Shown here: positions 18,409-22,614 of the stretch, piece by piece
How the letters are laid out: each line of letters starts with the position of its first letter
How positions within the stretch are numbered: position 1 is the stretch's first letter
Origin: Cycloclasticus sp. 46_120_T64
GTDB taxonomy: Bacteria; Pseudomonadota; Gammaproteobacteria; Methylococcales; Cycloclasticaceae
Direction: 5' to 3'
Assembly: GCA_002162695.1 (NCBI GenBank)
Contig: MAAM01000004.1
Coordinates: 186,001-250,000 of the forward strand
DNA length: 64,000 bases
Notes under the pieces: generated by a model
Told to the model about the DNA's origin: nothing
Seen by the model: only the letters and a program-made list of their open reading frames with translations
Databases searched by the model: none
Program-made: the position numbers and the translations under genes

Positions 18409-19350
18409 GTGGGGGGAGTTGCACATATCTTAATCGTTGATGATGAGCCCATCGGTGTGGAGCTGATGCGCGAGGTCTTAAGCGATGCCGAGGACTATGA
18501 GATTACTTCGGCGGAAGATGGTGAGACCGCACTGAAGTTATTAGAAGCGTCGCCATCGACGTTTGATGCCGTTTTATTAGATCAAAATATGCCTGGGCTG
18601 TCGGGCATGCAGGTGTTAGAAAAAATCAAAGAGCACCCCGTGTTATCGCATTGCCCAGTAATATTTCAGTCGGGGAACGATGATCCGCGGGATATTGCCG
18701 CGGGGCTTAGAGCCGGCGCACACTATTATTTAACCAAGCCATACGATAACGTGGTGCTCTGTTCGGTGGTAAAAACGGCGGTAAACGATTATTCTGAGTA
18801 TAAAGAAATACAGGCGGAACTTGATCGGCGCACATCGTTATTGGGTTTACTGACTTCGGCTCGTTTTGAATTTAGCACCCTTAATGAAGCGCGCGCTCTA
18901 GCGGCCTTATTGAGTCGAGCTTGTCCTGACCCCGTTACGGTGGCAACGGGCTTGACCGAGCTCTTATTGAATGCGATTGAACACGGCAATTTGCAAATCA
19001 GCTACGCTGAAAAAACGGCGCTGAATGAAACGGATTCCTGGAATGATGAAGTTGAACGTCGCTTGGGATTGCCCGAGTATCGTCAACGTAAGGCATCGGT
19101 TGAATTCAAATTAATCGGTTCGACGATTGAATTAACGATTCAGGATGAGGGTGCTGGTTTTGATTGGTTGCCTTATCTGCAGCTTTCCCCACACCGTGCG
19201 ATGGATAGTCATGGCCGAGGGATTGCTCTGGCCAATACACTTAGCTTTTCGAGCCTAGAATACCGCGGTAATGGCAACGAAGTTTGTGCGCGGGTTGAAA
19301 AGGATGCACTCATCAGTGAAGAAGCTCCGCTGGCGGTTAATCAGGCTTAG
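18409..19350 (+). CDS. Response regulator with C-terminal RsbW-like ATPase domain
   Basis: The 313-residue protein joins a receiver domain (about 5-125) to a GHKL ATPase domain (about 155-300). The receiver has the acidic pair Asp11-Asp12, the phospho-acceptor Asp58 (VLLDQNMPG) and Lys110 (LTKPYD). The ATPase part has an N-box ELLLNAIEHGN, a G1 motif QDEGAGF and a G2 motif HGRGIALAN. It lacks a His phosphorylation domain, so it resembles anti-sigma/serine kinase ATPases rather than a sensor kinase. The start is GTG 18409 behind a G-rich ribosome site. No partner antagonist or phosphatase is next to it. Its target is unknown. Confidence 0.88.
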   Translation: MGGVAHILIVDDEPIGVELMREVLSDAEDYEITSAEDGETALKLLEASPSTFDAVLLDQNMPGLSGMQVLEKIKEHPVLSHCPVIFQSGNDDPRDIAAGLRAGAHYYLTKPYDNVVLCSVVKTAVNDYSEYKEIQAELDRRTSLLGLLTSARFEFSTLNEARALAALLSRACPDPVTVATGLTELLLNAIEHGNLQISYAEKTALNETDSWNDEVERRLGLPEYRQRKASVEFKLIGSTIELTIQDEGAGFDWLPYLQLSPHRAMDSHGRGIALANTLSFSSLEYRGNGNEVCARVEKDALISEEAPLAVNQA

Positions 19351-19686
19351 TTAAGTTCACCTGGATGGGTTTCAACTCTGCTCACGGTACTCAATGGCTG
19401 CGTAAGGGGCGCCGGCGTACGAGCTAGTATAAGACGAACCTGAATTTTGTGTCTAGGTGTCGATGTTACGGTTTTTTCACAATCACTACGTTTCTTTATA
19501 TTCCAATATTGCTCCTAGTTCGCTCCGTCTAGGTGGCTTAAAACGCAGACGCAGATTATCGGTAACGGGCTGACCGACGGGATGGGACAGCAGCTATTTC
19601 GTACGTTTTTTTGTTAAACTCTGGGGTTGGTGGCGCTTTACAGTGTTAAGCGCTTATAACTACAGTATTAATAAATTAGAGAAATC
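19351..19686. other. Non-coding interval with small hairpins
   Basis: These 336 bases hold no plausible gene on either strand. A hairpin GCGCTT / AAGCGC lies at 19633-19653, just before the thioesterase gene. The word GTCTAGGTG occurs twice, near 19452 and 19526. I cannot identify a known RNA or regulatory family. Confidence 0.5.
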
Positions 19687-20073
19687 ATGGATCAAGAAAA
19701 ATCGTATATTGCGAATGACACGTTTGCAAAAAATTTAGGAATTAACTTAGTGAGCGCCGACAAGGGTAGTTCACGTTGTGAATTGACGGTGGGAGATGAA
19801 CATAAAAATGGCCTAGGTTCTGTTCATGGGGCGGTTATTTTTGCGCTGGCCGACGTGGCTTTTGCCGCGGCCTGTAATAGTGTGCAAGCCTCTATTGGAA
19901 TGCAGGCTGACATTCGGTATTTAAACCGGCCATTGGGTAACACCTTGATAGCCGAGGCAGATGAAATTGCCGGTTCTAACAAAATAGCGCACTATCAGGT
20001 GAAGGTCAGTGACGATCAAGGTTCGTTGGTAGCGCAGTTTACCGGCATGGCTTACCGCTTTCCCAAAAAATAG
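19687..20073 (+). CDS. PaaI-type hotdog thioesterase
   Basis: This is a 128-residue single hotdog-fold protein. The family motif is seen as KNGLGSVHGAVIFALADVAF (about 40-59), with the conserved His-Gly and the Asp at the active site. It continues as MQADIRYLNRP. Enzymes of this group hydrolyse acyl-CoA or aryl-CoA thioesters in the cytosol, for example hydroxyphenylacetyl-CoA in PaaI. No phenylacetate genes are nearby, so a broader acyl-CoA proofreading role is equally possible. It stands alone, with non-coding DNA on both sides and an AGAGAA ribosome site. Confidence 0.88.
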   Translation: MDQEKSYIANDTFAKNLGINLVSADKGSSRCELTVGDEHKNGLGSVHGAVIFALADVAFAAACNSVQASIGMQADIRYLNRPLGNTLIAEADEIAGSNKIAHYQVKVSDDQGSLVAQFTGMAYRFPKK

Positions 20074-20589
20074 TTTTAGCTAAACACTGCAAGCAGGGCC
20101 TTAGTTTTTTCTGAGCTAGGTGCCCTGCTGATAAGGTGTTTATATTAATGAGGCTTCTGGCTGGTGCCTGCTGGCCTATTCAAATTCACTAATCCTCCCT
20201 CTTTTATAAGCCTTTCCTAGGCAAGCTAAATAGGTTTGCCATGCGCCTGTTATTGGGCTGTTACGTGGTTTCGACGTCCATTGCTACGACTATCGATAAG
20301 CTCAACCATATTAGGGAAAACCTCGGCAAGGCGAGGAGGTTTTAAATAGCTGGTTTTTTTGTAAAAAACTACCCAACATACCCCTATAGTCTTACCGAAT
20401 TGCAGCTATTCAGCTGAATAGCTGACGACGCTCGAGTGAGCGTTTAATGACCGTATCCTAGGCGTTAGCCTAGGTGACGAACCCTTAAAAACCTGGGGGT
20501 TTAAGGCAAAGGCGTGCTGTCTACACTAAGCGTCATTATCAACTACACTCAGTAAGGGTTGTAATAATAATGAATACAGGGAGTTAGCT
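20074..20589. other. 516-base non-coding interval rich in inverted repeats
   Basis: No credible gene is found here. From left to right it holds an 8-bp-arm hairpin AGCAGGGC / GCCCTGCT (20092-20129), probably the end of the thioesterase transcript. Next come AAAACCTC / GAGGTTTT (near 20313-20343), an A/T-rich hairpin (near 20352-20374), and four closely spaced hairpins at 20403-20506. The last part is the leader of the chemoreceptor gene. I matched it against the consensus of the c-di-GMP, TPP and fluoride riboswitches from memory and found no fit. Confidence 0.5.
20403..20506 (+). repeat. Chain of four hairpins upstream of the chemoreceptor gene
   Basis: Four inverted repeats follow each other within about 100 bases. 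First is a 22-base perfect palindrome (20403-20424). Second is ACGCTC / GAGCGT with loop GAGT (20428-20443). Third is CCTAGGC / GCCTAGG with loop GTTA (20457-20474). Fourth is CCTTAAA / TTTAAGG with a 10-base loop (20483-20506). None ends in a T run, so they do not look like plain terminators. A structured 5' leader or small RNA is possible. Confidence 0.55.
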
Positions 20590-22614
20590 ATGGGTACGTT
20601 ATTTAATCCGGCCGTTAATATAATGAGTCGGCTCACTTATCCGAAGAAAATCGCACTGATCTCAGTGTTTTTTTTACTGCCATTGATTGTTGTTTCGGTG
20701 CTGCTAAGCAAGGAATTGAACCTGAAAATTGAGGTGACTGAGCAAGAACAGCACGGCTTAAAGTATATCCAAGCGATACGTCAGCTGTATCAGCACCTGC
20801 CAGAGCACCGGGGGATGATGAATGCTTACCTCAATGGCTCGGTTGAATTCAAAGAAAAAATCCTCTTACAAAGGCAGCTGATAACAGCGGATATAGCGGC
20901 GATTGATGTGGTCGATACGCGCTTCGGTGCGGAGTTTACTAGCCAGCAACATTGGCAGGCTATAAAACAAGATTGGCGGGCATTAGAGCAACGTGCGTTT
21001 AATGGCGAGGCGGTGGATATATTTGCTGCGCATAGCGCGCTGATCAGAAAAGTCTATGCGCTATTGGGTACCGTTAGCAACGGTTCTGGGTTGGCGCTAG
21101 ACTCCTACATTAACACTTATTCGGTGGTTGATGCCCTAGTCTACCGGCTGCCTTTAATCGGCGAGAGTCTGGGGCAATTACGAGGGATGGCGATGGGCGC
21201 GGTGTCGGTGTCGGAGATTTCCTTATTACAGCGGGTGAAACTGGGTTTGATCATGGGTGAATTGTCCTCCAGTTATTTATCAGTAAAGGAGGATATCGAT
21301 ATTGCCTTACGGGAAAATGAGGGCTGGAAAAACAAGTTTGGCCCGGGTTTGCTAGCGACTGAACAGCAGTTAATCAAGTTCAATGCAATGGTAACAACGA
21401 GTGTGTTAGAGGCTGAGCTGTTAACCCTAGATGCTAATACCATTTTTAATGAGGGCTCAAAAACGATCGCCTTGGCTTACAGCTTATATGATGATTTATT
21501 TCTAGCCTTGGATGGCTTGTTTGTCGCTAGGCAGGCTGAATTGGCGGCTGTGCGCAATACGGTAATGGGTTTGATTTTGGTCACCGCCTTGGTTGTTTTA
21601 TACCTGTTGGTGGGGTTTTATTTGACGATCATGAATACCATTCGGACTTTGGACGATTCAATGCGTCGAGTTGCGGCGGGGGATTTAACGGTGAATGTTG
21701 TCAGTGGTACTCAAGATGAACTTGATAGTATTGCTATATCGTTAAATAAGATGGTGGGGCAGATGCGCGGTTTGATGCGTAAATTAGGCGAGCACTCGTC
21801 TTTACTGGCCTCGGCTTCTACCGAGTTGTCGGCCACTACCGAGGGTTCTAAAAATACCGCGCTAGCGCAGCAGCAGCAAGCAGATCAAATTGCCACCGCG
21901 ATGAGCGAAATGGTGGAGAGTATTAATCAAGCCTCCTCTAATGCAACAACGGCTTCAGCGGATGCCAGTGATGCTGACCGAGAAGCGAACGAGGGGGGCG
22001 CGGTTATTCGCAAAACGATCGTCTCGATTGAAGGTTTGGCGGAAGAAGTAAATGTGGCGGCGGCTGAAGTGGCTAAACTTGAGCAAAATAGTATTGATAT
22101 CGGCTCGGTGCTGGACGTGATTCGAAGCATCGCCGATCAAACTAACTTGCTGGCGTTAAATGCGGCGATCGAGGCCGCTAGAGCCGGCGAGCACGGCCGT
22201 GGGTTTGCGGTGGTAGCGGATGAGGTACGTACCTTGGCTGGGCGTACTCAAGAGTCTACCGAGCAAATTCAACAAATGGTTGAGCGCCTGCAAAATAACA
22301 CCAAGAAGTCGGTCACGGTGATGGAGGCGAATAAATTGAATGCCGGTAAGGTCGCTGGTGATGCGTCGAATGCCTCGGAGTCGATTGATATCATTGTCGC
22401 CAAGGTGGCGCAAATCATGGGCAAGACGAATCAAGTCGCGAGTGCGACCGAAGGGCAGGTGTTGGTGGCTAAGCAGATTGATAGCCGTGTGGATGAGGTC
22501 TCCGATGGGGCGCACTCTGGCGTAGCGGCGGCGGGTGAAATTGCCTTAGCGAGTGAAGAACTGGCGCGCTTGGCGATTGAATTGCAAGGCGTAGTCTCTC
22601 ATTTTAAAACCTAA
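20590..22614 (+). CDS. Methyl-accepting chemotaxis protein
   Basis: This inner-membrane chemoreceptor has 674 residues. One membrane helix lies at about 19-38 and another at about 325-347. Between them is a periplasmic, mainly helical sensor of about 285 residues containing [11 protein letters not shown] and [17 protein letters not shown], reminiscent of four-helix-bundle sensors. A HAMP domain follows (about 348-400), then the cytoplasmic signalling domain with hairpin tip [19 protein letters not shown] and [17 protein letters not shown]. There is no C-terminal NWETF-type pentapeptide, so it would not tether CheR. The ligand is unknown. It is not next to che genes. Confidence 0.93.

Follow-up and report, generated by a model that had tools for sequence, protein, structure and literature searches.

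The window, i.e. the whole stretch of 64,000 nucleotides that was analysed, carries on its + strand a gene for a response regulator with a HATPase domain (18409–19350), a gene for a PaaI-like hotdog thioesterase (19687–20073) and, beyond a spacer, a gene for a methyl-accepting chemotaxis protein of 674 amino acids with HAMP and MCPsignal domains (20590–22614). Within the spacer, the thioesterase gene is followed by a long hairpin (20081–20142), while positions 20403–20506 consist of four back-to-back inverted repeats, each able to fold as a hairpin, the last of which ends 83 bases before the receptor ATG at 20590. Hairpin 1 (20403–20424) is a perfect 22-bp palindrome, CAGCTATTCAG followed by CTGAATAGCTG, whose 11-nt arms are 100% complementary and meet without a spacer (predicted + strand stem 20403–20411/20416–20424). 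Hairpin 2 (20427–20444), obtained from fold prediction, comprises ACGCTC-GAGT-GAGCGT plus one closing G-U pair on the + strand (stem 20427–20433/20438–20444), and hairpin 3 (20452–20479), returned by both repeat search and fold prediction, comprises CCTAGGC-GTTA-GCCTAGG (stem 20457–20463/20468–20474) with three additional outer pairs (20452–20454/20477–20479). Hairpin 4 (20480–20506) has two alternative pairings: AACCCTTA/TGGGGGTT (20480–20501), corresponding to the predicted + strand stem 20480–20487/20494–20501, or CCTTAAA/TTTAAGG (20483–20506), the form in which it had been described in an earlier, sequence-only reading of this DNA. The proposal made in that reading, namely that four hairpins including a 22-base perfect palindrome lie within 104 bases upstream of the receptor gene, was confirmed by repeat search and folding.

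The predicted minimum free energy of positions 20395–20515 (121 nt, + strand) was −49.9 kcal/mol versus a mean of −31.6 for shuffled sequences (z −5.06; 0 of 200 shuffles as good), with extra G-U pairs in the + strand fold, and the block on the − strand gave a fold z of −4.73. Other parts of the spacer fold less notably (z −2.1 for 20074–20397 and −0.4 for 20507–20640). Under a strict rule for hairpins (a perfect stem of at least 6 bp, a loop of 3–8 nt and at least three G-C pairs), by which hairpin 4 is not counted, and with a cluster defined as three such hairpins within 125 nt, no cluster besides the block turned up in the window or in the 464 kb sampled from its own genome, nor did any arise in 30 dinucleotide-shuffled copies of the window or occur in 400 kb drawn from two other genomes of the genus. 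None of the four hairpins is followed by a T run on either strand (read from the sequence, the − strand by eye), just as had been claimed, and a terminator scan of the block detected no intrinsic terminator.

The block is a real, statistically strong, single-copy row of palindromes. BLASTN against its own genome at E values up to 10 retrieved only the block itself and chance-level pieces, the best of which, an exact 16-mer on contig 13 within a gene of the 4Fe-4S ferredoxin type (named by eye from its cysteine pattern), was taken as chance. In the sampled 464 kb of the 2.21-Mb genome, hairpin 1 has no second copy with up to four mismatches, and near copies of the palindromes are in no clear excess, the largest being that of hairpin 3 (three found, one expected). 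A dispersed repeat, which the sequence-only reading had named as one finding that would tell against it, did not emerge, and this explanation was rejected on the absence of both BLASTN copies and a near-copy excess in the 464 kb. Additionally, BLASTN of the block against 60 relatives yielded only chance-level pieces: some match at E values up to 10 is present in 56 of 61 genomes (its own included), and the best outside its own genome has an E value of 0.0098 over 40 bases. A covariance model of the block, built from this single sequence, scored 148 bits against itself; in a search of 311 genomes of the order, run with stricter filters, matches at E values up to 1 were returned from seven genomes (its own included), the next best of them (19.5 bits, E 0.042) being taken as chance. 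The same model returned only self matches and one match at E 7.2 from 43 sequence sources. Plasmid and phage records gave no match to the block at E 0.01, and a plasmid, phage or viral origin was rejected for want of any match. The block has no Rfam match at the gathering score, the sole match in the window being a tRNA elsewhere, and relaxation to E 10 produced four chance-level matches and no riboswitch, which bears out the earlier view that no known riboswitch fits. A literature search on riboswitches, small RNAs and palindromic elements in Cycloclasticus revealed, among the matches listed, no title on such an element.

Orthologues of the receptor gene are present in two of the 17 other genomes of the genus, the first 385 residues being 45 and 44% identical. 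In both (loci L016 and L017), the receptor gene comes directly after thiC, and the hairpin block is absent. In the window, the response-regulator/HATPase and PaaI-like thioesterase genes (18409–20073) separate thiC from the chemoreceptor gene. The response regulator gene occurs in one of 18 genomes of the genus, and the query used found no relatives of it among viral contigs; the thioesterase gene has a counterpart, 83% identical and in a different context, in one further genome of the genus. On this comparison, the spacer belongs to a remodelled stretch; its G+C content is unremarkable.

Promoter-like words occur on both sides of the block, those downstream being better supported. Upstream, 12 nt ahead of hairpin 1, CTATAGT (20384–20390, + strand) is a candidate −10 element, for which no good −35 element was seen in the sequence. 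Downstream of the hairpins, CTACACT occurs twice on the + strand, at 20522–20528 as a candidate −10 element of the chemoreceptor promoter and at 20543–20549 as a further candidate, 40 nt before the ATG and within the range of distances seen in homologues. The −10-like word CTAYACT, which was picked after the leaders had been viewed and has no good −35 element with it, was counted in the zone 20–70 nt before the ATG in nine of the leaders of 31 homologues, where it ends at 29–43 nt; one leader (L032) has it at 80 nt, and none of the 31 has it at 100–300 nt. These leaders come from a subset of the 53 genomes with a match, with start codons picked automatically. An alignment query for related loci gave seven, of which L050 and L051 were used and the weak L052 was left out, while L046–L049 duplicate L019, L020, L017 and L016. 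The genome of the window has 12 matches to the signalling domain, of which one was dropped as its gene start falls outside its locus; of the 11 remaining leaders, the window's included, four contain CTAYACT within 80 nt of the ATG, the background being 39 per 928,000 strand-bases of the genome sample (the window's own two copies included). The copy at 20543–20549 sits in TATCAACTACACTCAG, and the near-identical TATCAACTACACTTAG precedes another receptor gene of the genome (L061), such that two chemoreceptor genes (window 20537–20552 and L061) share a promoter-like TATCAACTACACTYAG approximately 40 nt before the ATG. Pairwise alignment of these two whole leaders was no better than that of shuffled sequences, 29 of 200 of which reached its score, and thus only the short common words count. 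Some homologue leaders carry GCCGATA-like words instead. The genome possesses fliA; a FliA promoter for the receptor gene of the window was rejected, as its leader contains no good FliA match.

As the candidate CTACACT copies lie downstream of the block, these words indicate that the block is probably upstream of the receptor mRNA start and outside the main mRNA. The description of the hairpins as lying in the leader of the chemoreceptor gene is weakened accordingly: their position ahead of the gene stands, while their place in its transcript is made doubtful by the downstream CTACACT words and by the absence of the block from the two same-genus orthologues. Our preferred reading, held at a probability of roughly 0.4, is that the spacer between the thioesterase gene and the receptor gene's own promoter was remodelled and holds, as the block, a row of mutually dissimilar palindromes specific to this lineage. 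The block would have come with, or arisen during, this remodelling. If active at all, it would work through hairpins formed where two transcription units adjoin, in RNA read through from upstream, either by protecting the 3′ end of the incoming RNA or by hindering read-through into the receptor gene. Under this reading the block is not a ligand-sensing leader, and it has the look of a unique feature of this spacer, not of a new class of regulatory RNA. Several points count against it: the word CTAYACT was selected with the leaders in view and lacks a good −35 partner; a second barrier is not obviously needed, because the long hairpin at 20081–20142 already follows the thioesterase gene; and CTATAGT just upstream of hairpin 1 could start an RNA holding all four hairpins.

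It is this latter word on which a structured 5′ leader or small RNA would depend, with transcription starting near 20397 and yielding a four-hairpin RNA for control of the receptor gene or for action in trans. With CTATAGT 12 nt before hairpin 1, the RNA would open with a 5′ hairpin; the + strand fold is strong and has extra G-U pairs, and small RNAs are often species-specific. Nevertheless, we regard this as unlikely, given that neither a T run nor a terminator follows any hairpin on either strand, that Rfam has no match, that the block is missing from both same-genus orthologues, that the ten other readable receptor leaders of the genome contain no strict hairpin, and that the better-supported promoter lies downstream of the block. 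A bolder version is highly improbable: in it, the block would be a regulatory RNA of a new, multi-hairpin type, made of two tandem copies of a two-hairpin unit with diverged stems and the kept joining words TAGsTGACGA and GTTTAA, and would control the chemoreceptor in one Cycloclasticus lineage. Alternatively, the palindromes may function as DNA, as sites ahead of the receptor promoter to which transcription regulators bind. The block lies 36–140 bp upstream of the CTACACT at 20543, and hairpin 1, as a perfect 22-bp palindrome, has the usual length of an operator. A regulator usually has several sites in a genome, however, and neither related sites nor repeated half-sites were found in the 464 kb of 2.21 Mb. 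An operator array is disfavoured, and in our judgement quite improbable, because the four palindromes and their half-sites are unlike each other and no palindrome has a clear excess of near copies in the 464 kb; moreover, the palindrome centres, spaced by approximately 22, 30 and 29 bp, do not recur in even helical phase.

The block may also be a functionless relic, its palindromes a legacy of mobile DNA or of template-switch errors made while the spacer was being remodelled, an explanation that we consider rather unlikely while giving it some weight. Its single copy, the lack of homologues and the variable neighbourhood are in keeping with such an origin, as are TGACGA directly after both hairpin 1 and hairpin 3 and the somewhat better alignment of the two halves of the block than of shuffled sequences. 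The alignment score of the halves (20399–20450 and 20451–20507, a split point chosen after the block had been seen) was reached by 11 of 5000 shuffles and by 156 of 5000 random units in which the hairpins were kept; judged from these sequences, an old two-hairpin duplication within the block is suggested, and no more than suggested. Conversely, unless they are recent, four unselected stems should no longer be intact, and no other copies exist in the genome. The presence of two genes for Y1 transposases in the same genome also speaks for a relic, although no hairpin clusters flank them. These two genes (L121 and L122) are IS200-like, and the absence of hairpin arrays beside them led to the rejection of a REP/RAYT system. 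Inspection by eye for integron attC core sites found no pair.

Comparison with known systems revealed partial likenesses. Ligand-sensing riboswitches, of which the c-di-GMP (GEMM) type and others are known before chemoreceptor genes, resemble the block in that structured sequence precedes a receptor gene; the block differs in having no Rfam riboswitch match at E 10, in not being conserved in orthologues and in its likely position outside the mRNA. With intrinsic (Rho-independent) terminators it shares G+C-containing stem-loops between transcription units, but as a T run is absent after each hairpin these are not ordinary terminators. In Di Nocera et al. 2013 (PMC3733652), CGTC is given as the tag of one superfamily of REPs, and CGTC-tagged REPs are described as having a stem of 8–9 bp starting with AT, a loop of 4–5 nt and a CCA-like tail. 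In such repeats the tag, CGTC or GTAG, stands unpaired at one end. Relative to that description, the block is similar in its short extragenic palindromes with stems of approximately 7–9 bp, 4-nt loops and no terminator tail, and CGTC precedes hairpins 1 and 3 (not 2 and 4) on the − strand. It is dissimilar in that it is not repeated in the genome, its four units are unlike each other, and the stems start with CAG and CCT rather than AT and are followed by CAA and ATA on the − strand. CGTC was present at seven of 316 hairpin ends in the 464-kb sample, where the mean per tetranucleotide is 4.9, so that an enrichment is not clear. Membership of the REPs, CGTC-tagged or otherwise, was rejected, as the block is not repeated and its stems and tails differ from the pattern described. 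For the Crp/Fnr-type regulators DPR-1 and DPR-2 of Cycloclasticus, binding sites between genes have been reported (PMC8547461), and the block is likewise intergenic; the passages concerned print no motif with which it could be compared.

If the block were transcribed with the receptor gene, it would represent lineage-specific RNA control of chemotaxis in a marine oil degrader. On the present evidence its value is mainly cautionary, in that four well-formed hairpins ahead of a gene do not by themselves make a leader, and promoter positions in homologues, taken together with the other receptor genes of the same genome, provide a cheap check on leader calls. Two other sequences were noted during the survey of folds. 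A long inverted repeat, TAGGTTGG...CCAACCTA (L084:18436–18540), forms the second most stable 105-nt fold in the 464 kb sampled, and a tandem array of the 7-base unit TGGGTAC is present elsewhere in the same genome as the block (L076:13561–13665).
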